Below, in pieces: positions 511 through 11,683 of a DNA stretch of 62,652 bases (positions within the stretch are counted from its first letter, which is position 1; each line of letters begins with the position of its first letter). Origin of the DNA: an uncultured Eubacteriales bacterium (lineage in GTDB: Bacteria; Bacillota; Clostridia; Peptostreptococcales; Anaerovoracaceae); NCBI GenBank assembly GCA_902779185.1, contig CACZAM010000007.1, positions 1 through 62,652 of the forward strand, given 5' to 3'. The position numbers were made by a program, and so were the translations under genes. Under the pieces are notes generated by a model that saw nothing but the letters and a program-made list of their open reading frames with translations, was not told the DNA's origin and searched no databases.

Positions 511-1608
511 ATGACTTATGAAGAACTGAAAAAAGAAATGGAAAAGTATCCCGAGACTATGTCTGCGGGTGAAAGAATGCAGAAGTATGAGGCCATGGCC
601 AATATATTCGGCTATACGACTGCGCAGTGGAGAAATGATGTAAAAGTTCACATCGATGTGATCAAAAGAAGGCAGGAGGAGTTCAACATCGGCGGACTCG
701 CATCGGGCCTCAGACTGAGAACCATGGCGCAGGCTGTCGGTTCTGAAATATATTTTCCGGAAGTCGGTATCGACCGCGTGATCAAGCCTGTGCTTACAGA
801 CTACTCAATGCTTCCTGAGCTGATGAAGGACAATCCGAAGAAGAATCCGGTATTCCTCGCTGTTCTCCAGAGAGGAATCGACCTCAAGATGGCATTCCCT
901 GAGATGGGTATCGCGATGCCTGTTGCCGGTCCATTCACAAATGCTTCTCTGATAAGACCGGTTGAGATGATACTCAGGGATACGGTAAGAAACCCTGAAA
1001 AACTGAACGATCTTCTTAAGTGGACTGTTGATTATACAATAGCTTATGCGGAGATGTTCGCGGATGAATTCGGCGGCGGAGGATGCACCATCTGCGATCC
1101 TATCAGCTGCGCTGACATTCTGGGCAAGAGAAACTACAGGAAATTCTCACATCCATGGCTTGAGTATCTTGTTGAAGGCCTTACACAGACTCTGGGTAAA
1201 AAGCCTGGCATCCACATCTGCGGAAAGACATCACCGCTGTGGGATGACATGCTGAAACTCAAGGTGTCGAGCTTCAGCGTAGACAATATGGAAAACCTCG
1301 CTGACGCAAGAGATAAGATGGGTCCTGTATTCGGACTGGTAGGAAACGTTGCTCCTGTGGACGTAATGCTCAACGGAACTATCGATGATGTCATCGAGAC
1401 ATGCAAACAGTGCATTATCAATGGCTCTGAAGCTGAGAACGGATACACGCTGGGCACAGGCTGCCAGGTACCGATCGGAACTTCCCGCGAGAACTTCGAT
1501 GCGTTCATCTTTGCTGCACGCAAGTACGGCAGAGGAGCGCGTAAAGGAATGCTTCCGCTCGGCATAGTCGAAGAGGCCGCAAATGAAGTAGTAATGAATA
1601 AAGCCTGA
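511..1608 (+). CDS. UroD-fold corrinoid methyltransferase (MtaA/CmuA-like)
   Basis: This 365-residue protein belongs to the uroporphyrinogen decarboxylase-like methyltransferases, which move methyl groups to or from a corrinoid protein. The family zinc site H-x-C...C is intact: His235 and Cys237 in HICGKTS, and Cys318 in GTGCQVP. A family-typical segment GGLASGLRLRTMAQAVGSE lies near residues 61-80. It opens an operon with the corrinoid protein 35 bases downstream and the activator after that. The product at 9297-10403 is its closest relative here (shared LRTMAxAxGS-type block and the same C-terminal pattern). Family members include methanol/methylamine:CoM methyltransferases, chloromethane methyltransferase and O-demethylase methyltransferases of acetogens. 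The sequence does not reveal which substrate applies. Confidence 0.85.
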   Translation: MTYEELKKEMEKYPETMSAGERMQKYEAMANIFGYTTAQWRNDVKVHIDVIKRRQEEFNIGGLASGLRLRTMAQAVGSEIYFPEVGIDRVIKPVLTDYSMLPELMKDNPKKNPVFLAVLQRGIDLKMAFPEMGIAMPVAGPFTNASLIRPVEMILRDTVRNPEKLNDLLKWTVDYTIAYAEMFADEFGGGGCTICDPISCADILGKRNYRKFSHPWLEYLVEGLTQTLGKKPGIHICGKTSPLWDDMLKLKVSSFSVDNMENLADARDKMGPVFGLVGNVAPVDVMLNGTIDDVIETCKQCIINGSEAENGYTLGTGCQVPIGTSRENFDAFIFAARKYGRGARKGMLPLGIVEEAANEVVMNKA

Positions 1609-1643
1609 TAAACGGCTGATAACATAAAGGAGAATGTATTATA

Positions 1644-2297
1644 ATGGCTACTAAAGAAGAACTGCTGCAGAAGATGTCCGACATGGTATTCGAGATGGAG
1701 GACGAGGAGATCGCTGACGTATGTGAGGAGTATATCGAAGCCGGATACGACGCGCTCGATGGTATCCTTCACGGACTCGTTGACGGCATGAACCGAGCAA
1801 GCGAGATGTACGACCAGGAGGAGTATTTCGTAACTGACCTGCTTCTCTGCTCGGATGCTATGTATGCAGGCCTCGACGTGCTCCGCCCGCATCTTCCTGA
1901 AGACGCAAGTGTAGGTGAGGCTAAGAAGGCTGTTATCGGAGTAGTCGAGGGAGACACTCACGATATCGGAAAGAACCTCGTAAAGATCATGATGGAAACT
2001 GCAGGCTTTGAGATGTTCGACCTCGGAAGAGACGTGCCTCTCGACAGCTTCGTTGAGAAGGCTAAAGAGGTAGATGCAGACCTTATCATGATGTCAACAC
2101 TCATGACTACAACAATGCCTGGAATGAAAGAGGTCATCAACAAGCTCAAGGAGCAGGGCATCAGGGACAGCATCAAGGTCATGGTAGGCGGAAGCCCTAT
2201 TTCGCAGAAGTATGCTGACGACATCGGAGCTGACGGCTATTCCAGAAATGCTGTCGAAGCTGTGGAAGTCGCAAAGAGACTCTGCGGAGTAGAATAA
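1644..2297 (+). CDS. methyltransferase cognate corrinoid protein
   Basis: A 217-residue B12-binding protein of the MtaC/MtbC/MttC type. An N-terminal four-helix cap (about residues 1-85, typified by EEIADVCEEYIEAGYDALDG) precedes a Rossmann-like cobalamin domain. The signature D-x-H-x-x-G is present as DTHDIG at residues 104-109, and His106 should be the lower axial ligand to cobalt. The expected GG-containing nucleotide-loop segment VGGSPIS follows near the C-terminus. Length is normal for the family. As the only corrinoid protein in the window, it probably carries the methyl group between the neighbouring UroD-type enzymes. An AAAGGAG site precedes the ATG. Confidence 0.93.
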   Translation: MATKEELLQKMSDMVFEMEDEEIADVCEEYIEAGYDALDGILHGLVDGMNRASEMYDQEEYFVTDLLLCSDAMYAGLDVLRPHLPEDASVGEAKKAVIGVVEGDTHDIGKNLVKIMMETAGFEMFDLGRDVPLDSFVEKAKEVDADLIMMSTLMTTTMPGMKEVINKLKEQGIRDSIKVMVGGSPISQKYADDIGADGYSRNAVEAVEVAKRLCGVE

Positions 2298-2320
2298 AAA
2301 ACAAAAAGGAATCAAAAGTA

Positions 2321-4168
2321 ATGCCTATTTTGAATGTTATGCCGGAGGGAAAGCAATACGATTTTGCCTCCGGCAAAAATTTGATGGAAATAATGCTCGA
2401 AGCAGGCCTGTTTATAGACAATGCATGCGGAGGCAAAGGCCTGTGCGGAAAGTGCAGGGTAAAGATCACTGAAGGCGATGCAGGTGAAGCGGGGGAAACC
2501 GAGCGCGGTATTCTGAAAGCAGAAGAGCTCGAGCAGGGAGTGAGGCTCGCGTGTCTTGCTTACCCGGTTTCAGACATCACAATTGAGCTGCTTCAGAAAG
2601 AAAAGAAGCACGATGTGCTTGCCTCCGGGTATATGCCTGATTTTGAGTTCGAACCTGACATCGTGAAGGTGCCGGTCACGATACATAAGCCGACACTTGC
2701 GGATCAGACACCGTTCGAGAACCAGATAATAGATCAGGTGGGGGCAGCGTCCATCGTCGGACATGACGGGGCGACCGGATACCTTGGCTTTGATTACACA
2801 GCTCTGCGTGAGCATTCGATGCTGCCGGGGGAATATACCGCCGTGATCCATGATGGCAAGGTAATTGCTCTTGAACCCGGCGACACGACGGGATCGCTTT
2901 ACGGAGTCGTCATTGATATCGGAACGACTACAGTCGTGTGCTCTCTTGTTGACATGCTGACGGGCGAGGAACTCGGACATGCTTCAGAGATCAATGCGCA
3001 GAAGTTCTTCGGACTTGACGTTCTTACCAGGATCACTTATGAGATAGAAAACCCGGAGGACGGAAGAGAAAAGCTGCAGAAGGCCATCGTGGGCTCCATC
3101 AACAAGATGGTAAAGTCGGTATGTGACAAAAATGGCGTGACTCAGGATCAGATCTATGAAGTATCTGTCGGAGCCAACTGCACCATGATGCACATGCTGA
3201 TGGGAGTAGACGCAAGGCCTATTGGCAAAGCGCCGTTTGCTCCGGTTTTTGCGCGTGCAAAAGATGTAAAAGCTTCGGATATAGGGCTTAAAGCAGCTCC
3301 GGGGGCGAGACTCTACTGCCTGCCTTCGGTATCCGCATACATAGGAGCGGACATCGTTGCCGGCGCGTATGTGTGCGACCTCAGGAACCGTAAGGGCAAT
3401 GTCATGTTCATAGACATAGGAACAAACGGCGAGATAGTGCTTGCTGCTGACGGAAAGCTCATGTCATGTTCATGCGCTGCGGGACCGGCTCTTGAAGGCA
3501 TGAATATCAGCTCGGGAATGCGCGCAGCTGAAGGCGCTATCGAGGACATACACATAAACGAAGACGGGATCGATATCAAGGTGATCGGGGACTGTGAGCC
3601 GGCAGGCATCTGCGGAAGTGGCATACTTACGGTCACTAAGGAGCTCCTGAGGACCGGCATCGTAAGAAAGACCGGCGCTTTTGTCAAGGCAGACAAGTTC
3701 GATGCGGACGACTACAGGTCAAAGTATATAGCCGTCGATGAGGACGGAAAGAGATCGTTCAGGATGACGGAAGGCGGAGACGGCGCGGATCCACTCTATA
3801 TCACACAGGGAGACGTGCGTCAGGTCCAGCTTGCAAAGGGAGCGATCCTGTCAGGCTTTATGGCGCTTCTTAAAAAGGCCGGCATAGGCATGGCTGATCT
3901 CGACAAAGTTCTTATCGCCGGGCAGTTCGGAGCGCATCTGCCTGCTGAGAGCATCACGGGCACGGGGATACTGCCGTTCGAAGTCGAAGACCGCATAGAG
4001 TATGTAGGCAATACATCCAAGACCGGCGCTTACATGGCACTGATGTCGGGGAAGGTAAAGAGACAGATGGAAGCACTCGCTCACGACATGGATTATCTTG
4101 AGCTCGGTGCTACCGACAACTACGAGAGGCTCCTGTCCGAATGCCTGATATTCCCGGTTTTCAAATAG
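2321..4168 (+). CDS. RACo-type reductive activator of corrinoid protein (DUF4445/ASKHA)
   Basis: A 615-residue protein that reduces an inactivated Co(II) corrinoid back to Co(I) at the expense of ATP. An N-terminal [2Fe-2S] ferredoxin domain has ligands Cys36, Cys42, Cys45 and Cys78 (C-x5-C-x2-C...C). A linker follows, then the ASKHA-type ATPase domain with phosphate-binding turns DIGTTT at 199-204 and DIGTNGE from residue 365. Domain order and length match RACo proteins of acetogens and methylotrophic anaerobes. It lies 23 bases after the corrinoid protein, its expected client, and 13 bases before the next methyltransferase. This strongly indicates a working corrinoid methyl-transfer system rather than scattered relics. 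Confidence 0.92.
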   Translation: MPILNVMPEGKQYDFASGKNLMEIMLEAGLFIDNACGGKGLCGKCRVKITEGDAGEAGETERGILKAEELEQGVRLACLAYPVSDITIELLQKEKKHDVLASGYMPDFEFEPDIVKVPVTIHKPTLADQTPFENQIIDQVGAASIVGHDGATGYLGFDYTALREHSMLPGEYTAVIHDGKVIALEPGDTTGSLYGVVIDIGTTTVVCSLVDMLTGEELGHASEINAQKFFGLDVLTRITYEIENPEDGREKLQKAIVGSINKMVKSVCDKNGVTQDQIYEVSVGANCTMMHMLMGVDARPIGKAPFAPVFARAKDVKASDIGLKAAPGARLYCLPSVSAYIGADIVAGAYVCDLRNRKGNVMFIDIGTNGEIVLAADGKLMSCSCAAGPALEGMNISSGMRAAEGAIEDIHINEDGIDIKVIGDCEPAGICGSGILTVTKELLRTGIVRKTGAFVKADKFDADDYRSKYIAVDEDGKRSFRMTEGGDGADPLYITQGDVRQVQLAKGAILSGFMALLKKAGIGMADLDKVLIAGQFGAHLPAESITGTGILPFEVEDRIEYVGNTSKTGAYMALMSGKVKRQMEALAHDMDYLELGATDNYERLLSECLIFPVFK

Positions 4169-4181
4169 AAGAGGAAACAAA

Positions 4182-5201
4182 ATGACTACAGCTAATGAAA
4201 GACTTATAAAGATCCTTTCGGGCATGAAAGCTGACAGACCTGCCTGCATCTGCCCGGGCGGAATGATGAACATGGTCACAAAGGCCCTGCAGGACACCTG
4301 CGGAGTGTATCTGCCTGAGGCTCACACGGATGCAAGAATGATGGCGGATCTTGCCAAGGCCATATATGATAACGACTGCTTTGAGAATTACGGAGTGCCG
4401 TTCTGCATGACAGTCGAGGCCGAGGCTCTCGGCGCCAGCTGCACCATGGGCACGCAGCTTTTTGAGCCACATGTCACAGGATATGCCATCGACACGGTGG
4501 AGGACTATAAAAAGCTCAGGCCGATGGACCTGGAAGCCGGCAGGGCAAAGGTCACACTCGATGCGATCAGGCTTCTCAAAGCGGAGACGAAGGATGTCCC
4601 TATCATTGGAAACATCGTCGGACCTGTCAGCGTGGCCAGTTCGGTATGCGAGCCGACAAGATACTACAAGCAGATGAGGCAGAAGAGGGAGCTCACACAC
4701 GAGTACATGCAGTTCGTTACGGACGATCTCATAAGATTCGCTCTTGCCATGGTAGAAGCAGGCGCTGATGTCATAGCTCTGTCCGACCCGAGCGGTACGG
4801 GCGAGATACTCGGACCTAAGTTCTTTGACGAATACGCTGTCACCTACATCAATCAGGTGGTGGAAGCAGTCAAGGCTGCCGGCGCAAAGACCATAGTTCA
4901 TATCTGCGGACAGATGAAGTCCGTATATGACAAGGTCGCAAAGATCCACAGCGATGCTTTCAGCTTTGATGCCGTCGTATCACTCAGAGAGGCAAGAAAG
5001 AACCTGCCTGACAAGGTCATCATGGGCAATGTCAGTACCTTCGCGATAGAGATGCAGGAGGAGAAGACTGTGGATAAGCTGACGAGAGCCAGCTACGCGA
5101 ACGGTTCGGATATAATATCGCCTGCGTGCGGACTTGGAATGGGTTCACCGCTGAGCAACGTCCAGCAGGTGCTCAAGACCGTAAAAACCTTCGCGGAATA
5201 A
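4182..5201 (+). CDS. UroD-fold methyltransferase, MtaA/MtbA-like
   Basis: A 339-residue member of the UroD methyltransferase family, close in length to MtaA/MtbA, the corrinoid:coenzyme M methyltransferases of methanogens. Zinc-site residues are intact: His240 and Cys242 in HICGQM and Cys316 in SPACGLGM. The family block VEAEALG is near residue 81. Because bacteria of this kind normally lack coenzyme M, the acceptor is likely to be another thiol or a pterin, or the enzyme is another substrate-side methyltransferase; the sequence does not decide. It is translationally close to the activator upstream, and the LRR protein starts 3 bases after its stop. Confidence 0.85.
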   Translation: MTTANERLIKILSGMKADRPACICPGGMMNMVTKALQDTCGVYLPEAHTDARMMADLAKAIYDNDCFENYGVPFCMTVEAEALGASCTMGTQLFEPHVTGYAIDTVEDYKKLRPMDLEAGRAKVTLDAIRLLKAETKDVPIIGNIVGPVSVASSVCEPTRYYKQMRQKRELTHEYMQFVTDDLIRFALAMVEAGADVIALSDPSGTGEILGPKFFDEYAVTYINQVVEAVKAAGAKTIVHICGQMKSVYDKVAKIHSDAFSFDAVVSLREARKNLPDKVIMGNVSTFAIEMQEEKTVDKLTRASYANGSDIISPACGLGMGSPLSNVQQVLKTVKTFAE

Positions 5202-5204
5202 TCA

Positions 5205-5921
5205 ATGGCTGCTGTAAAGAGTGAAATCAGAATAGAAGACGGTATCGTGCAGGTAAATGAACTGGCTTTTGCAGGAGCTGACAGTCTCGAGAGGCTGCTG
5301 CTTCCGGATTCCGTGCGGGAAATCGGCAACTATGCTTTTATGAACTGTTATGCCCTGCGTGAGATCCGTATGCCTGAAAGTGTAGACCGGATAGGTGCAG
5401 GCCTTTTTCAGAACTGCTGGCAGCTGAGAAGCGTACGGATGCCTGAAGGCACAGTTTCGCTCGGTACGGATATGTTTGAGAACTGCCACGCTCTTGCGGA
5501 GCTGTGGCTGCCGCATTCGCTGAAAGAAGCGGCCAGGACTTCTCTCAGCGGCTGCAGGAGTCTGCGTGCAATACATATCAGTCCGCAGCAGATAGAGATC
5601 CTGCCGCCGTCAGCAAGATACACTGCCATACTTACCTATATGGAAGAGCATGCTGAGGAAAAATCTGATAATGAGGACTGCGCGGTGATAGAGCAGTATG
5701 TGAAAGACCGGCAGAAATCGTTCCTCGACCTTGCAATAAACAGGAAAAGCACTGATGCCGTGAGATATATGGTAATGCGCGGACTCATAGATGAAGAGGC
5801 TCTGAGGGAGTATCTCAATAAATCGGCAGCTACAGGCCGGGTAGAGATAACGGCCTTGATTCTGGACAGTCTCAGGCATACTAACGAAGACCACGCGTTG
5901 TCAGAGGATCCGTTTCAATAA
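5205..5921 (+). CDS. cytosolic leucine-rich-repeat (LRR_5/BspA-type) plus ankyrin-like protein
   Basis: A 238-residue protein with no signal peptide. About residues 22-130 form five tandem repeats of 23 residues, each of the pattern xFxxCxxLxxIxxPxSVxxIGxx (LRR_5, as in BspA surface proteins). The C-terminal part (about 165-228) has an ankyrin-like shape: FLDLAINRKSTDAVRYMVM, then a helix pair ending in EITALILDSLR. The start codon lies only 3 bases after the methyltransferase stop, and the next methyltransferase follows after 14 bases, so it is embedded in the operon. LRR_5 proteins are usually surface-exposed or of unknown role; here a cytosolic protein-protein scaffold is the simplest inference. 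Function unknown. Confidence 0.75.
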   Translation: MAAVKSEIRIEDGIVQVNELAFAGADSLERLLLPDSVREIGNYAFMNCYALREIRMPESVDRIGAGLFQNCWQLRSVRMPEGTVSLGTDMFENCHALAELWLPHSLKEAARTSLSGCRSLRAIHISPQQIEILPPSARYTAILTYMEEHAEEKSDNEDCAVIEQYVKDRQKSFLDLAINRKSTDAVRYMVMRGLIDEEALREYLNKSAATGRVEITALILDSLRHTNEDHALSEDPFQ

Positions 5922-5935
5922 AAAGGAAGAACAAA

Positions 5936-6805
5936 ATGGGTGAAATAAGAGAATACAAATGTACATATTCCAACTCGGTAGGTATAAGCGCCGAGGTGAC
6001 TTCGGGGCTTGGGCTGGGGTTTCCGGATGCGTACATGCACAGCGAAACCATGCAGGTGCTGGCTAAGGCAATAAAGGAGCATGACGGAGCGGACTTCTGC
6101 CTTCTGCCTTTCTGCCGCACGGTCGAAGCCGAGGCGATAGGCGCCATACTCAACTACGGCGACGCGAATACCGGACCGAGAGCAAAGGACCCTATCTGTA
6201 GCACCAGTGATGATGTTCTCGCGCTTCCTGATGTCGATGTGACTAAGGGAAGAATGGCGGAAGTGCTCGATGCATGCGCTAAAATGAAGGCGGAAGGAGA
6301 GACTGTGTGCCTTGAAGTGACAGGTCCGTTTACCATGCTCAATGCTCTGATGGAGCCGAGGAAGGTCTTCAAGGCTTACAGAAAAGACCATGACGGCATG
6401 GTAAAAGTCTTCGAAAAGCTGGGCGACTCACTGCTTGCATATATCGAGGCAGGTAAGAGGGCCGGGGTTGATGTTTTCATCTTCTCAGACTCTGCAGGGG
6501 CGCCGGAGCTCCTCGGACCTAAATTCATGACTCAGGCGGTAGAGGACTTCTATCATCCGTTCCTGAAAAAAGTTGAGGAGCTTATGGATGACAGCTGCAT
6601 ATTCCTCCTTTGCCCAAAGTTTACTTTTGCTGTAATAGATACCGGATTCGGCGAGTTCAGGGAGCATGAGCTTGAGCCGGGCACAGATTTTCTTGATGCC
6701 ATGCTTCAGATGAGAGGCAAGGCGAAAATCGGCGGTCAGGTCTGTATCAAGAATATAGGCGTAAAACTCGCAAACGGAAGATTCAGGGAGATCGTTCTCA
6801 AATAA
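5936..6805 (+). CDS. divergent UroD-fold methyltransferase paralog with altered metal site
   Basis: A 289-residue protein clearly homologous to the gene at 4182-5201 (for example PFCRTVEAEAIGA against PFCMTVEAEALGA, and ELLGPKF against EILGPKF). The zinc histidine is replaced: the expected H-x-C is LLC (Leu224, Cys226), while the C-terminal Cys270 (GGQVCIK) remains. Both ends are shorter than in its relative, and the last 20 residues diverge. The reading frame is intact with a good ribosome site (AAAGGAAG), so it is not a simple pseudogene. It may bind a different ligand, act as a non-catalytic partner, or use other residues for the metal. Confidence 0.75.
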   Translation: MGEIREYKCTYSNSVGISAEVTSGLGLGFPDAYMHSETMQVLAKAIKEHDGADFCLLPFCRTVEAEAIGAILNYGDANTGPRAKDPICSTSDDVLALPDVDVTKGRMAEVLDACAKMKAEGETVCLEVTGPFTMLNALMEPRKVFKAYRKDHDGMVKVFEKLGDSLLAYIEAGKRAGVDVFIFSDSAGAPELLGPKFMTQAVEDFYHPFLKKVEELMDDSCIFLLCPKFTFAVIDTGFGEFREHELEPGTDFLDAMLQMRGKAKIGGQVCIKNIGVKLANGRFREIVLK

Positions 6806-6817
6806 ACGATCCGGGCC

Positions 6818-7570
6818 ATGCAAAAGGAGAACAGTTTGGATCTGTCGGCATATAAAAAGAAGATACTTATAGCATGTTCGATGATCGAAGACGAGATAAA
6901 TGCCGCCTTCGATCGTTTTGAAATACACGACATTGAAATATGGTGGCAGGAGAGAGGCCATCACAATGATCCCGACAAGCTGCGCGAAGTGATACAGTCT
7001 GAGATCAGGAAGGCAGAGGATGCCGGAGCTGATCTTATAATGCTGGGATACGGCCTCTGCGGCAATGGAGCGGTAGGCTGGCATGCAGAAAAGGCGGTTC
7101 TTGTGATGCCACGCTTTGATGACTGCGTAAACATGATGCTCTGCACCGGAAAGAGGGAAAGACGAAATTACCTCAAAGCAGGCCATATGTATCTGACAGG
7201 CGGGTGGAGCAAAGACGATGGCGCTCTTCTCGACATGTTCGAAAGCTATCTGGCAAAATACGGAAAAAGAAAAGCAGACAAACTAATGAAGATGATGCTC
7301 GATTCCTATACGAGTGTCACCGTGATAGACACAGGCTGCTACGAAATGGAACCAGTGATCGCTTATGCTGATGAATGCGCGGAGCGCTTCTGTCTCGAAA
7401 GGGGGATAGTTCCGGGCGGCAATGAAGTCATGCAAAAGCTGATCACCGGAAACTGGGATGATGATATCATCGTAAAAAAGCCGGGATCTGCAGTAACAGA
7501 AGAAGAATTCAGTTTTGAGGGAGAAGCGGGAGCGGAGTACGGCCCGACTCGTCTGGGAGAAAAGAAGTAG
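6818..7570 (+). CDS. DUF1638 family protein
   Basis: A 250-residue protein matching the DUF1638 pattern: LIACSMIEDEI near the start, the conserved LIMLGYGLCGNG near residue 75, a tryptophan-rich YLTGGWSKDD segment, and VIDTGCYE near residue 170. The family has no assigned biochemistry but recurs beside corrinoid methyltransferase genes, which fits here. The ATG at 6818 has no ribosome site. The in-frame TTG at 6836 is preceded by AAAAGGAG 6 bases upstream, so the true start may be TTG at 6836 (244 residues). It is the last gene before the 281-base gap and appears to end the first operon. Confidence 0.75.
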   Translation: MQKENSLDLSAYKKKILIACSMIEDEINAAFDRFEIHDIEIWWQERGHHNDPDKLREVIQSEIRKAEDAGADLIMLGYGLCGNGAVGWHAEKAVLVMPRFDDCVNMMLCTGKRERRNYLKAGHMYLTGGWSKDDGALLDMFESYLAKYGKRKADKLMKMMLDSYTSVTVIDTGCYEMEPVIAYADECAERFCLERGIVPGGNEVMQKLITGNWDDDIIVKKPGSAVTEEEFSFEGEAGAEYGPTRLGEKK

Positions 7571-7743
7571 CAAATGACAGCGATAAACAATAGCAATGTA
7601 AGAAACGTGAATGCGGTATTTAGATAAACCGAATGTTTGAATCAGAATCGTGAAAAACAACAATACTATTAGTTATTAATTATATAAAAAGTACAATTAT
7701 TGATTTGATAAATAATTAACCAGAAAAAAGGAAAAAAAATAAT

Positions 7744-7771
7744 TTTACTTTGATAAAAAAAAGATTAAACT
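7744..7771 (+). promoter_or_regulatory. predicted promoter for the NhaC-type antiporter gene
   Basis: TTTACT (7744-7749) and TAAACT (7766-7771) are 16 bases apart at the end of a very AT-rich 150-base stretch that could act as an UP element. The start site would fall at the hairpin at 7774-7798, giving the mRNA a 5' stem-loop. Confidence 0.4.
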
Positions 7772-7773
7772 GT

Positions 7774-7798
7774 AAAAGCTGCCTGAAACGCAGCTTTT
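7774..7798 (+). terminator. hairpin AAAAGCTGC/GCAGCTTTT
   Basis: A perfect 9-base stem with a 7-base loop, ending in TTTT. It may terminate the upstream methyltransferase operon, or form a protective 5' stem-loop of the antiporter mRNA, because a promoter candidate lies just upstream. Confidence 0.5.
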
Positions 7799-7851
7799 AT
7801 GTTGTTTTCAATTAGAAAGAATATATCAAAAGAAAAAAGGAGTAAGTTATC

Positions 7852-9210
7852 ATGGAAAATCAGAAGAAGAGCAGCGGTCTGGCGCTCGTGCCATTCGCTG
7901 TATTCATCATCATCTACCTCGGTGCAGGAATCATTCTGCAGTCAAAAGGCGTAGAGATGGCATTCTATCAGTTCCCTGCAGTAGTAGCGATGTTCATCGC
8001 GGTACTCGTTGCATTCGCAATGAACTACAAGGCAGGAATCAACACTAATTTCTCGATCTTTGCAAAAGGCGCAGCTAACGAAGACGTTATGGCAATGCTC
8101 ATGATCTACCTGCTCGCAGGTGCTTTCTCTGCAGTTGCAAAGTCGATGGGCGGAGTTGACGCTACAGTTAACCTGGGTGTATCGATCATCCCTGCATCTC
8201 TGCTCACAGCAGGTCTTTTCATCATCGCATCCTTCCTTGCAACAGCTACAGGAACTTCTATGGGAACGATCGGAGCTCTCGTACCTATCGCTCTCGGCGT
8301 TGTTGACAAGGCAGGACTCAGCCTTCCGCTCGTTATGGCAGCAGTAGTTTCCGGCGCTATGTTCGGAGACAACCTGTCCATGATCTCGGATACAACTATC
8401 GCAGCTACAAGAACTCAGCATGTAGAACTCAAGGACAAGTTCAGAACTAACTTCTGGATCTCGTTCCCTGCAGCTATCGTTACGATCATTCTCCTCGTTA
8501 TCTTCGGAAGACCTGAAACAGCTCAGGCTCTCGAGGTAGGCGGATTCGACTTCGTAAAGGTCATCCCATATCTGCTCGTACTCGTTCTCGCTCTTATCGG
8601 AATGAACGTATTCCTGGTACTGACAATCGGTATCTTCGCAGCAGGCATCATCGGAATGGCTTATGGCGACATCACATTCATGGATTTCGCAGGCAACATC
8701 TGGGCAGGATTCCAGGGTATGATCGAAGTGTTCCTGCTGTCCATGCTCTGCGGCGGTATTGCGGAAATGGCTAAGCACTACGGCGGCCTCAACTGGCTCA
8801 TCGAGAAGCTGTCGAAAACATTCAAGGGCAAGAAGTCGGCTCAGGTCGGACTCAGCGCACTTGCTGCTCTGACAGACATGGCTACAGCCAACAACACTGT
8901 TGCCATCATCGTTGACGGTCCTATGGCAAGAGAAATCAGCGAGAAGTATGACATCGACCCTAGGAAGACTGCTTCCATCCTCGACATGTTCACATGCATC
9001 ATGCAGGGACTCATTCCTTACGGAGCTCAGTTCCTCGTAGTAGCAAGCATGTGCGAGGGAAGAGTAAGCCCGCTCGACATCATCCCGAACAACTGGTACC
9101 TCTTCCTGCTCGCGATATTCGCTATCATTTCTTACTTCGTTCCTTGGTATGAGAACATCACACTCAAGGGCAAGTGGGACTGGAAAGAGAACAAGGTCAT
9201 CAACAACTAA
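7852..9210 (+). CDS. NhaC-type Na+/H+ antiporter family membrane protein
   Basis: A 452-residue protein with about eleven hydrophobic segments. It belongs to the NhaC/IT superfamily, as shown by the conserved GDNLSMISDTTIAATRTQ beginning at Gly172 and a second re-entrant-like segment, ALTDMATANNTVAII. Family members exchange Na+ for protons, or malate for lactate. Its place between two UroD methyltransferase genes suggests transport linked to the methylated substrate or its ions, which is inference. Codon choice is strongly biased (almost only ATC for Ile, many CTC and GCA), which suggests high expression. Ribosome site AAAAGGAG precedes the ATG. Confidence 0.8.
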   Translation: MENQKKSSGLALVPFAVFIIIYLGAGIILQSKGVEMAFYQFPAVVAMFIAVLVAFAMNYKAGINTNFSIFAKGAANEDVMAMLMIYLLAGAFSAVAKSMGGVDATVNLGVSIIPASLLTAGLFIIASFLATATGTSMGTIGALVPIALGVVDKAGLSLPLVMAAVVSGAMFGDNLSMISDTTIAATRTQHVELKDKFRTNFWISFPAAIVTIILLVIFGRPETAQALEVGGFDFVKVIPYLLVLVLALIGMNVFLVLTIGIFAAGIIGMAYGDITFMDFAGNIWAGFQGMIEVFLLSMLCGGIAEMAKHYGGLNWLIEKLSKTFKGKKSAQVGLSALAALTDMATANNTVAIIVDGPMAREISEKYDIDPRKTASILDMFTCIMQGLIPYGAQFLVVASMCEGRVSPLDIIPNNWYLFLLAIFAIISYFVPWYENITLKGKWDWKENKVINN

Positions 9211-9238
9211 CAGTATCTCCATGAGAATCCATAAGCTT

Positions 9239-9272
9239 ATGCCGGGATCCCACTGAAACGGGTCTCCGGCAT
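9239..9272 (+). terminator. intercistronic hairpin, weak terminator
   Basis: ATGCCGG (9239-9245) pairs with CCGGCAT (9266-9272), with an inner CCC/GGG. Only a broken T-run (TGCTTGTT) follows. It may reduce read-through or mark mRNA processing between the antiporter and the following methyltransferase. Confidence 0.45.
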
Positions 9273-9296
9273 TGCTTGTTAAAAGAGGAAGAAAAA

Positions 9297-10403
9297 ATGG
9301 GTATAATCGAACAATACGGACACGGACTGGAAATACCGAAGGATGAGCTCACCGCAATCGAAAGGGACAGACTGCTGAGCGAGGGTAAGGAAGTCGACCG
9401 CATCATGTGCTGCATCGATACGGGCGAGACTCTTGCGCCTATGATCGGACTGAAAGTAAAGGACTATTACTTTTCGTCACAGAAGATGCTTGAGCTTGAG
9501 CAGTATATATACGACACCTTCCATTCGGATGGCGCAGGCCTGTCTACAACTCTTCGCGGAATGGCGGAAGCAATGGGCTCGAAGATCAGATATTTTGATC
9601 ACAACATAGCGCAGCTCGAGGAGCCTGCTCTCGCAAGCCTTGATGAGGTAGACAAAGCAAAACTGGTCGATGTTGACAAGGATGGCAGACTTCCTATTAT
9701 CCTTGAAGGCCTCAGAATGGTAAAAAAGGAGCTTGGTGATAAGGTCCCTGTCAGCGGAACTGTTACAGGCCCGTTCACCATCGCGGCAATGGTCGTCGGA
9801 ACAGAGAAACTTCTCATCGGCATGATAAAAAAGCCTGATAAGGTCAAGCAGCTGATGGAAGTGATCACAGAAAACAACGAGAGATATATTGCCCGCATGC
9901 TTGAGATGGGAGTTGGTGTAGGATTCGCTGACCCTGTCAGCACAACATCGCTTCTCAGAGTAAAGCAGTACAAGGAATTCTCGCTTCCTTATTTCCAGCA
10001 CAATGTAGACTTCATCAGGAAGAACGGCGGGGGCTGCGGTCTTCATATCTGCGGAGGAAGCCGCAAGCTCTGGGAGACTCTCAATGAGACGGGGATCGGA
10101 TGCTTCGGACTCGATAATATCGAAGATCTTGAGGAAGCAAAGGAAGTGCTCGGACCTCACATGGCAATCCAGGGCAATGTTCCTCCGGTAGATGTCATAA
10201 GACTCGGCACACCTCAGGACGTGCTGAGATCAGGTAAGGAGTGCATCAGAAAAGCATGGGATTCACCGAATGGATTCACCCTGACTTCAGGATGCCAGAC
10301 ACCTATGGATACGCCGGCAGAGAATCTGCAGGCGCTGATGGATGCGGCGCGCATATTCGGAAGGTATCCGATCGACACGGATCTTCTGAATGCCGATCTG
10401 TAA
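9297..10403 (+). CDS. UroD-fold corrinoid methyltransferase
   Basis: A 368-residue relative of the gene at 511-1608. It has HICGGSRKLWETL, with the zinc His/Cys pair near residues 249-251, and a C-terminal Cys in TLTSGCQTPMDTP. The block GLSTTLRGMAEAMGSK matches the equivalent block of its paralog. I place the start at ATG 9297, which has AAAGAGGAAG just upstream; the frame is also open from a TTG at 9276, but that lacks a ribosome site. It follows the antiporter gene and is separated from the next gene by a hairpin and a new promoter. Two related enzymes in one locus could act on different methyl donors through the same corrinoid protein; this is inference. Confidence 0.85.
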   Translation: MGIIEQYGHGLEIPKDELTAIERDRLLSEGKEVDRIMCCIDTGETLAPMIGLKVKDYYFSSQKMLELEQYIYDTFHSDGAGLSTTLRGMAEAMGSKIRYFDHNIAQLEEPALASLDEVDKAKLVDVDKDGRLPIILEGLRMVKKELGDKVPVSGTVTGPFTIAAMVVGTEKLLIGMIKKPDKVKQLMEVITENNERYIARMLEMGVGVGFADPVSTTSLLRVKQYKEFSLPYFQHNVDFIRKNGGGCGLHICGGSRKLWETLNETGIGCFGLDNIEDLEEAKEVLGPHMAIQGNVPPVDVIRLGTPQDVLRSGKECIRKAWDSPNGFTLTSGCQTPMDTPAENLQALMDAARIFGRYPIDTDLLNADL

Positions 10404-10418
10404 AACACATAATATAAA

Positions 10419-10451
10419 GGGGCAATTATAGATTTATTCTATAGTTGCCCC
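10419..10451 (+). terminator. hairpin ending the methyltransferase unit
   Basis: GGGGCAATTATAG pairs with CTATAGTTGCCCC through a 13-base stem (one G-T pair) around a 7-base loop. The T-run after it is poor. Its right arm overlaps the -35 box of the next promoter. Confidence 0.55.
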
Positions 10452-10471
10452 TGTTACTTTGCTCGTATAAT
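10444..10471 (+). promoter_or_regulatory. predicted promoter for the double-cubane reductase gene
   Basis: TTGCCC (10444-10449) and a perfect TATAAT (10466-10471) are separated by 16 bases. A short hairpin GCCGC/GCGGC (10484-10498) follows in the leader, so the downstream gene has its own start of transcription. Confidence 0.6.
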
Positions 10472-10531
10472 TAAAAGGTAGGGGCCGCTTACTGCGGCTG
10501 TTTAATCCAGAAAAGAAAGAGGGTTCAGTTT

Positions 10532-11683
10532 ATGGAAATCATTAAGGAACTGCCTGCGGTATTTGAAGAATTCGCAGAAGCAAGAAGAAACGCATTTATC
10601 AATGTCAAGAAGGTAAAGGATCAGGGGATCCCTGTAATCGGATCATACTGCACATATTTTCCGCAGGAGCTTGCCATAGCTGCGGGAGCTGCTACAGTAG
10701 GTCTCTGCTCAACATCCGGAGAGACTATTCCGGTTGCTGAAAAGGATCTTCCTGCAAACCTCTGCCCGCTGATCAAATCCAGCTATGGATTTGCTAAGGC
10801 AGACAAGTGCCCGTTCTTCTATTTCAGTGACATCGTCATCGGTGAGAATACCTGCGACGGAAAGAAGAAGATGTACGAGCTTATGAGTGAATTCAAGGAT
10901 GTATTCGTAATGGATCTTCCTAATTCCCAGAGTGAAAAGGGACTCGAGCTCTACAAGGCAGAACTCCTGAGACTCAAAGCATATGTAGAAGAGAAGTTCG
11001 GCATTACAATTACTGATGATGACATGCGCAAGGCTGTCAAGCTTGAGAACGAGATCAGAGTAGCTAAGAAGCAGCTCATCGACACAATGAAGAACGATCC
11101 ATGCCCTGTTTCCGGACTCGATATGTTCCATGTTCTCTATGGAAGCGGATTCAAATTCGACCACACCGTTATCCCTGGTGAAATGGCAGACGTCAAGGCA
11201 AAGATCGAGAAAGAGTTTGCAGAAGGCAAGAAACTCGACAAGAGACCTCGCATCGTTCTTACCGGCTGCCCGATCGGAGGAGTCACTGAGAAAGTCATCA
11301 AGGCTATCGAGGACAACGGCGGTGTAGTAGTAGCAATGGAGAACTGCGTTGGCGCCAAGCAGTACGACAGACTCGTTGACGAAGATGCTGAGGACATCTG
11401 GGAAGCAGTTGCATACAGATATCTGCAGATCGGATGCTCTGTAATGACACCGAACCCTAACAGATATGACCTGCTCGGCAGAACTATCGATGAGTACAAG
11501 GCTGACGGAGTACTTGAGATGACACTCCAGGCATGCCATACTTACAATGTAGAGCACAAGTCAATCGAGAGGTTCTGCACAGAGGAGAAGAAGGTGCCAT
11601 ACTTCATGGTTGAGACAGACTACTCTACAGCAGACGTTGCTCAGCTCAATACACGTATCGCAGCGTTTATAGAGATGCTGTAA
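10532..11683 (+). CDS. double-cubane-cluster protein / 2-hydroxyacyl-CoA dehydratase family reductase
   Basis: A 383-residue protein of the HgdB/BcrB-C/DCCP superfamily of Fe-S enzymes that perform ATP-driven low-potential reductions. N-terminal cysteines at 40 (SYCTYFP), 59, 78 (NLCPLIKSSY), 93 (DKCPFF) and 108 (ENTCDGKKKMYE), and later ones in TGCPIGG and ENCVGAKQYD, fit the single-polypeptide double-cubane type rather than a two-subunit dehydratase. Known DCCPs reduce small molecules such as acetylene in vitro; their physiological role is open. The normal partner is an ASKHA Fe-S activator (HgdC/DCCP-R), which is not adjacent. The only ASKHA protein nearby is the RACo at 2321. It has its own promoter and terminator, and strong codon bias suggests high expression. 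Confidence 0.82.
   Translation: MEIIKELPAVFEEFAEARRNAFINVKKVKDQGIPVIGSYCTYFPQELAIAAGAATVGLCSTSGETIPVAEKDLPANLCPLIKSSYGFAKADKCPFFYFSDIVIGENTCDGKKKMYELMSEFKDVFVMDLPNSQSEKGLELYKAELLRLKAYVEEKFGITITDDDMRKAVKLENEIRVAKKQLIDTMKNDPCPVSGLDMFHVLYGSGFKFDHTVIPGEMADVKAKIEKEFAEGKKLDKRPRIVLTGCPIGGVTEKVIKAIEDNGGVVVAMENCVGAKQYDRLVDEDAEDIWEAVAYRYLQIGCSVMTPNPNRYDLLGRTIDEYKADGVLEMTLQACHTYNVEHKSIERFCTEEKKVPYFMVETDYSTADVAQLNTRIAAFIEML

Follow-up and report, generated by a model that had tools for sequence, protein, structure and literature searches.

What can a methyl-transfer system do when its methyltransferases all belong to the UroD fold, and where would its methyl groups come from and go? The question is raised by a locus at the start of contig CACZAM010000007.1 (assembly GCA_902779185.1) of an uncultured Eubacteriales bacterium, in which four UroD-fold genes (UroD-A to UroD-D) accompany one corrinoid protein and its reductive activase. 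We analyzed the whole stretch (contig C7, positions 1–62652; here, the window), which comes from a genome of 2.25 Mb in 81 contigs estimated at 79% completeness. Because of its homology to a cluster of C. ljungdahlii and its agreement with published cluster criteria, the locus is almost certainly a type 1 mlp gene cluster (MGC; Kountz & Balskus 2023, PMC10418091); the gene arrangement is therefore an already published, widespread cluster type and not a new type of system. Reading function from sequence comparison, we put the probability at about 0.65 that the cluster demethylates methyl selenides or methyl sulfides and passes the methyl group to a thiol rather than to folate, its purpose being to recover selenium and/or sulfur along with that methyl group rather than to support methylotrophic growth. 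The features are as follows.

511–1608, + strand: UroD-A, UroD-fold methyltransferase (PF01208, 145.9 bits; cut-off, 23.9) with HICG...GC and His-Cys-Cys zinc ligands
1644–2297, + strand: MGC corrinoid protein (CorC; PF02607 and PF02310), DTHDIG at residue 104
2321–4168, + strand: RACo/Ram ATP-dependent reductive activase (PF14574, PF17651 and Fer2)
4182–5201, + strand: UroD-B, the predicted Mlp3 (PF01208, 248.2 bits), zinc ligands H240, C242 and C316
5205–5921, + strand: BspA-like LRR_5 protein (PF13306), within the operon between the Mlp3 and Mlp1 genes
5936–6805, + strand: UroD-C, the predicted Mlp1 (PF01208, 70.4 bits), a short form of 289 aa with Leu replacing the zinc His
6818–7570, + strand: DUF1638 protein (PF07796, 131.8 bits), its last nine residues derived from a deleted Mlp2 gene
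7529–7583, + strand: deletion scar, joining the DUF1638 end to the last part of a lost gene of the C. ljungdahlii Mlp2 (ClMlp2) type
7852–9210, + strand: NhaC-family transporter (PF03553)
9297–10403, + strand: UroD-D, Mlp2-clade methyltransferase (PF01208, 244.7 bits) with His-Cys-Cys zinc ligands
10532–11683, + strand: double-cubane-cluster-containing anaerobic reductase (DCCP; NF040772, 502.2 bits; cut-off, 350)

Every gene from 511 to 11683 lies on the + strand, and the first seven (UroD-A to DUF1638) are tightly packed with gaps of 3–35 bp, followed by 281 bp between DUF1638 and the transporter gene. A previous sequence-only reading had named the four UroD-fold genes, the DTHDIG corrinoid protein, RACo, and the DUF1638 and NhaC-type genes, and all of these hold in both place and family, with each UroD-fold protein above the PF01208 cut-off. 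Two points needed correction: the gene at 5936 does encode the UroD fold but as a short form without the zinc His, and the locus is larger than described, with the LRR_5 gene inside the operon and the DCCP gene extending it to 11683. UroD-D has a possible alternative TTG start at 9276, and the transporter scores under the cut-off of the NhaC equivalog model TIGR00931 (106.5 versus 370 bits).

As a reference we used locus L202 of C. ljungdahlii (L-numbers denote fetched loci and G-numbers genomes, with our own genome being G000), which we took for the published MGC of that species (ClMGC) because its gene order is the published Mlp1–Mlp2–corrinoid protein–Mlp3–Ram. The window corrinoid protein is 69% identical to that of ClMGC, RACo 60% to its Ram, UroD-B 58% to ClMlp3 and UroD-C 45% to ClMlp1, while ClMlp2 is nearest (45%) to 'UroE', a gene that the window lacks and that relatives including G013 and G009 carry. 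The published definition asks for genes in one direction with no divergent genes between them, as is the case across 511–11683, and for spacing of at most 2 kb; from UroD-A to UroD-C the largest distance is 734 bp (UroD-B to UroD-C), and UroD-D, 2.49 kb past UroD-C, is beyond that limit if taken alone. It further asks that no folate methylase lie within 20 kb, and PF00809 and PF02007 had no match in our genome. Mlp2 and Mlp3 are both present as judged by tree, with UroD-B beside ClMlp3 and UroD-D and UroD-A beside ClMlp2 (the preprint's similarity network was not rebuilt), and the expected His-Cys-Cys zinc ligands, from which several Mlp1 proteins are excepted, are in place. Many type 1 MGCs contain DCCP genes (PMC10418091), as this one does. 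Unlike ClMGC, the window cluster has lost the ClMlp2 orthologue and has two other Mlp2-clade genes (UroD-A and UroD-D), carries the LRR_5 gene in its operon as well as DUF1638 and NhaC genes (neither seen in L202), and sits directly downstream of a cobalamin biosynthesis region. Among 391 genomes sampled from the class (Clostridia), 21 had relatives of UroD-B at E ≤ 1e-50, our own included.

For a phylogeny of the UroD fold, 300 hidden Markov model hits were collected, of which 290 were 240–480 aa long and 264 of these distinct. We then discarded rows shorter than 250 aa, three frames that were partial duplicates, and any row sharing 62% identity or more with one already chosen; the 80 rows left included the window's four proteins, three Mlps of C. 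ljungdahlii and MtaA. In this tree, UroD-B and ClMlp3 shared a seven-row group and UroD-C and ClMlp1 a four-row group (both with a Shimodaira–Hasegawa-like approximate likelihood-ratio test (SH-aLRT) value of 95), and UroD-D, UroD-A and ClMlp2 fell in one 21-row clade (SH-aLRT 99), where UroD-A was long-branched. A second tree of 42 hand-picked rows with orthologues added united UroD-A and UroD-D in a 15-row clade (support, 100/99) and placed UroD-A nearest a genus-restricted paralogue (99/96), with support for the wider Mlp2 group at just 92/94. UroD-A looks like a fast-evolving, genus-restricted duplicate of the UroD-D line.

The aligned zinc ligand columns read His-Cys-Cys (HCC) in UroD-A, UroD-B and UroD-D, the ligand set of methyltransferases acting on sulfur or selenium (PMC10418091), and the three ligands of UroD-B are invariant across 20 aligned orthologues (19 of them from other genomes, plus the window protein). 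The columns read Leu-Cys-Cys in UroD-C, in ClMlp1 and in the remaining two members of their four-row group. Among 17 Mlp1 rows, 11 were HCC, four Leu-Cys-Cys, one Gln-Cys-Cys and one had a gap at the last ligand, a column that is uncertain in these C-terminally short proteins, UroD-C included.

A function can be proposed from a ClMlp2 assay in the preprint and from work on two methanogens, M. voltae and M. maripaludis. In vitro, selenide is methylated by ClMlp2, and M. voltae reportedly no longer uses dimethylselenide when an Mlp2 gene is mutated (PMC10418091); to call the donor unknown, as the sequence-only reading did, is therefore too strong. In M. maripaludis, transcripts of an sdm-like operon are described as rising by 5.6–7.8 log2 upon selenium depletion (PMC11097638). 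The SdmABC system of Methanococcus voltae and M. maripaludis resembles the window cluster in combining UroD-fold methyltransferases with a corrinoid protein and in its published role with dimethylselenide (PMC11097638, PMC10418091), a likeness by description and not by sequence; it belongs to methanogens, and the available text of PMC11097638 mentions no arrangement with NhaC, DUF1638 and DCCP. That UroD-fold enzymes seem to fill both the donor and the acceptor role agrees with the sequence-only reading, which also raised a thiol acceptor, now the better-supported option; overall, its interpretation is partly supported.

In the proposed scheme, RACo, perhaps aided by DUF1638, would use ATP and reducing power to convert the corrinoid protein to the Co(I) state. 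UroD-D, of Mlp2 type, and its duplicate UroD-A would take up a methyl-selenium or methyl-sulfur compound at their His-Cys-Cys zinc and hand the methyl group to the corrinoid protein, from which UroD-B (Mlp3, of the four the most similar to MtaA) would move it to a thiol, for example homocysteine or sulfide; folate would not be the acceptor. UroD-C (Mlp1), without the zinc His, may be an accessory subunit or have another metal site. Which Mlp serves the donor and which the acceptor is a guess. The part given to DUF1638 is by analogy, and fits because B12-dependent methionine synthesis in Phaeobacter is described as requiring both DUF1638 and a RamA-like protein (PMC5764234); no relative of DUF1638 with a solved structure was found at E ≤ 1. 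The NhaC-type protein probably imports the substrate of the cluster, which may be methionine-like, and its identity as a MetT methionine transporter is plausible from literature that describes NhaC-family transporters of this kind as probable (PMC2940859, PMC3228920).

Selenium use by the genus is consistent with this function. Of 36 genus genomes compared, our own included, 16 carry UroD-A; the genomes are in part incomplete, which limits genome-wide absences. SelD with one in-frame TGA was found in 19 of 20 genus genomes, our own included, which shows that the genus uses selenium and makes selenophosphate with a selenocysteine-containing SelD. Overall, demethylation of methyl selenides or methyl sulfides is supported by the gene match to ClMGC, the tree, HCC in UroD-A, UroD-B and UroD-D, the likeness of all four UroD-fold proteins to MtaA of M. 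mazei (25.5% identity or more), the lack of PF00809 and MtrH matches, SelD, the adjacent DCCP gene, which is provisionally linked to selenium (PMC10418091), and methionine-transporter-like genes in clusters of relatives. The last comprise MetN-, MetI- and MetQ-like genes in the cluster of G022 (MetN by BLAST alone) and a MetQ-type lipoprotein gene in that of G024 (PF03180, above cut-off).

Several findings weigh against this function. The ClMlp2 orthologue, the member assayed with selenide, is the one deleted here, and UroD-D, which shares just 30% identity with ClMlp2, may act on a different substrate. SelD is also present in all five genus members without UroD-A (G003, G004, G015, G023 and G026), one of which (G004) has a UroD-D-like match; selenium therefore failed as a discriminator of cluster carriers, SelD being present regardless of the cluster. 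The DCCP gene is found in just three of 10 genus loci, the MetQ-like and MetI-like G022 proteins are below their NCBIfam cut-offs, and all 20 genus genomes searched have nitrogenase-like PF00148 matches (below cut-off in G030), whether or not they carry the cluster. For these particular proteins, the proposed function comes from likeness to characterized relatives.

The PF00148 matches bear on the strongest alternative, in which the cluster demethylates methyl-sulfur compounds, for methionine salvage or methanethiol use, with no role for selenium. The preprint ties the nitrogenase-like MarHDK to a non-selenium class of MGC and reports that organisms of that class lack selenium traits (PMC10418091), whereas this genus produces selenophosphate through a selenocysteine-containing SelD. 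Since PF00148 was found in all 20 genomes, including those without the cluster, MarHDK also failed as a discriminator. A sulfur-only role would agree with the PF00148 matches, with the methionine-transporter-like genes inserted in relatives' clusters, with the probable MetT function of NhaC-family proteins and with a linked homocysteine methyltransferase locus described below. The provisional selenium link of DCCP and the PF00148 matches in genomes lacking the cluster speak against it; we regard it as unlikely, though well worth keeping in mind. Our own genome encodes a pair of nitrogenase-like PF00148 proteins on another contig (C9, 10254–12520; L216).

It is improbable that the cluster instead works as a catabolic, acetogen-like pair of first (MT1) and second (MT2) methyltransferases, with one UroD-fold enzyme taking up the methyl group and an MtaA-like UroD-B passing it to tetrahydrofolate. 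The sequence-only reading had compared the locus with known MT1/MT2 systems, the preprint allows that one Mlp could be an undiscovered folate methyltransferase (PMC10418091), and UroD-B exceeds the cut-off of the MtaA-type subfamily model PRK06252 (391.3 versus 244 bits). Likeness to MtaA and MtbA is otherwise limited to 31% identity with MtaA and the HCC zinc site: UroD-B scores 209.7 bits against the MtaA cut-off of 400 and 205.5 against the MtbA cut-off of 600, and the context is not that of a methanogen. Local identities to MtaA of M. mazei were 25.5% for UroD-A (196 residues), 30.9% for UroD-B (317), 26.4% for UroD-C (197) and 28.4% for UroD-D (313). The full thiol-type HCC site of UroD-B argues against transfer to folate, as do the cluster-bearing C. 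sporogenes and H. thermocellum, which are without any folate methylases (PMC10418091).

Searches for pterin-linked methyltransferases in the genus argue the same way. PF00809 was absent from all 15 UroD-A-bearing genus genomes searched (15 of the 16; three of them, G022, G029 and G035, at 95% completeness) and present in all five outside-genus genomes in the same search; we take it to be the domain common to MetH, AcsE and dihydropteroate synthase. MtrH (PF02007) was found in none of 20 genomes and the MetE-type catalytic domain PF01717 in none of 20 genus genomes, and MttB occurred in two of 20, G024 and G025, each time away from the contigs bearing the cluster genes. The absence of MttB and MtrH noted earlier extends across our 79% complete genome (no match at E ≤ 0.001), including the DNA just upstream of the window, where such a partner would have refuted the sequence-only reading; MtaB (PF12176), likewise reported absent, was not among the 20 window proteins scanned with Pfam, and no genome-wide search for it was made.

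The sequence-only reading had also likened the locus to O-demethylases, and an aromatic O-demethylase or halomethane dehalogenase with an MT1 like MtvB, OdmB or CdmB would share the UroD-fold MT1 and corrinoid protein with it, as described for CdmBCA, OdmB, VdmB and MtvB (PMC13222342). The Cdm system is described as having an MT2, CdmA (PMC13222342), whereas no relative of CdmA was detected here. All four window proteins group with MGC Mlps 1, 2 and 3. Other UroD-fold proteins of A. dehalogenans, which we take to be of O-demethylase types, were placed in clades apart from them. CdmB itself (L185; a 419-aa frame matching PDB 9rui at E 1.8e-289) falls in another clade, although UroD-A (E 1.3e-4) and UroD-D (E 3e-6) do give weak hits to it, which is the one point in favor of such an MT1. 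Its ligand columns read Ser-Gln-Phe, and those of L200, L193 and L189 read His-Ser-Thr or His-Ser-Cys, in place of HCC. The tree included MtaA and CdmB, whereas OdmB, VdmB and MtvB were not identified and so not compared directly; with the comparison confined to CdmB and to unnamed paralogues from A. dehalogenans, tree and ligands lead us to reject this MT1 as highly improbable. Finally, haem-type uroporphyrinogen decarboxylases, which share the fold and Pfam family, can be practically dismissed, since the four proteins did not group with them in the tree, the hemE model TIGR01464 gave at best 79.4 of the 303 bits needed (UroD-A, 41.5; UroD-B, 79.4; UroD-D, 78.1; UroD-C, no match at E ≤ 0.001) and corrinoid and RACo genes adjoin.

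What accepts the methyl group in type 1 MGCs was left open in PMC10418091, the sole paper on the type found in our literature searches, which returned no closer follow-up to the mlp work. For a cluster demethylating methyl-selenium or methyl-sulfur compounds, a locus upstream of the window suggests methionine as the methyl sink. The contig ends at the window start, and through collinearity with a relative we identified C13 as the upstream contig: in G013 coordinates, 79 bases separate its low end from the match of window base 121, so the two are almost surely neighbors. Genes on C13 were named from likeness to relatives. It holds, on the same strand, a pair of genes (L204, 8490–11537) about 33 kb upstream of the cluster, namely a fused UroD–corrinoid gene and, at L204 8490–9707, a PF02574 homocysteine methyltransferase. 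PF02574 proteins with open frames of 406–445 aa were found in 14 of 15 UroD-A-bearing genus genomes and in none of five without UroD-A (Fisher p 0.0004, ignoring kinship and physical linkage); of the latter, G026 had only the type with a 332-aa frame. The long-type gene adjoins the fusion gene, directly or across one small ORF, in all 11 loci read, and two short-type loci contained no such fusion.

The methyltransferase retains NCSTG and GGCCG, which carry the zinc cysteines of the PF02574 family. An IHHAD motif is present in the fusion protein, whose UroD part shares 39% identity with a presumed O-demethylase-type protein of A. dehalogenans. Together the pair is a candidate folate-free methionine synthase. 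Published folate-independent methionine synthases, as described, are the MetE-like families MesA–D (PMC7857596), and the PF02574 and fusion locus is not among them in that description; the gene found here matches PF02574, and the MetE-type domain PF01717 had no match in the 20 genus genomes. Split MetH enzymes that combine a PF02574 part with a shared corrinoid protein are described from marine bacteria (PMC5764234, PMC12478193), but that of P. inhibens has a pterin part, and none was found in the searched genomes of this genus. Our literature search found nothing closer.

The window might be one end of a corrinoid island of about 47 kb, in which methyl groups from methylated selenium or sulfur compounds, and from another donor of the fusion protein, would pass through corrinoid proteins to homocysteine by way of the PF02574 enzyme, yielding methionine without methyl-folate. 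In six genomes the pair and the cluster share one contig, 24–33 kb apart with cobalamin biosynthesis genes between, and CbiK-like or CbiP/CobY-like cobalamin genes lie within the read stretch at eight of the 11 fusion loci. Speaking against the island, the pair shares a strand at five of 11 loci and is divergent, and so not one operon, at six; cluster-bearing G008 (86% complete) has no PF02574 match; and the loci of G035, G007 and G009 show no cobalamin gene of the kinds sought in the read stretch, and because of these three a physical linkage with cobalamin genes does not hold throughout. We consider the island a tentative idea with the odds against it. If true, it would add a folate-independent route to methionine unrelated to MesA–D and answer where the methyl groups of mlp clusters go. 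In any case, a genus with an MGC and this locus, and with no detectable MetH, MetE, MtrH or other pterin methyltransferase, makes the question of the methyl acceptor testable.

The cluster also varies within the genus. We compared the window with nine genus loci read on both sides (n = 10). UroD-A, the corrinoid protein, RACo, UroD-B and LRR_5 keep the same order in all 10, UroD-D is present in all 10 (in G029 on another contig), NhaC in nine, UroD-C in eight and DUF1638 in seven, one of them a fragment. The window DNA tracks that of G013 as far as the DUF1638 terminus and from there skips to 49 bases surrounding the UroE terminus, and the final nine residues of the window DUF1638 protein are those of UroE. 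A tblastn search of the window gaps for remnants of MetNIQ and UroE recovered this nine-residue end at 7541–7567 (E 0.014), with all other hits at E ≥ 0.28. On this comparison, the canonical Mlp2 gene was lost from our genome through an in-frame deletion that left a scar; an insertion in G013 is unlikely because UroE, as the ClMlp2 orthologue, occurs in other genera too. MGC anatomy shifts within one genus, with the canonical Mlp2 lost, a fast-evolving duplicate gained and methionine-transporter-like genes inserted. In other families of the class, an NhaC-type gene lies directly 3' of a UroD-D-type gene in G039 and G319, and UroD-D-type, NhaC and DCCP genes share one cluster in G241.

Beyond 11683, the window continues with an amino-acid ABC transporter (ORFs recognized by eye) and arginine biosynthesis genes. 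No riboswitch was found with Rfam, as nothing but two tRNAs matched at gathering score in the window and no riboswitch did so in seven relatives' loci (L050 left out). A Uma2-family putative endonuclease gene lies between an extra Mlp2-type gene and NhaC at L031 7033–7890 and L042 11352–12347, perhaps a sign of insertion at that spot. Genes for a VWA-like (DUF2201) protein and an AAA-type ATPase lie between the cobalamin genes and the cluster at L041 9651–12523 and L217 113–3110, the latter assigned by likeness to relatives. In G039 (L050 4969–6756), an Mlp1-like protein carries a fused CobW-like GTPase domain, and in G044 (L049 4633–6431) such a domain adjoins an Mlp1-like protein; the domain matches a 'CobW-related selenoprotein' model under cut-off.

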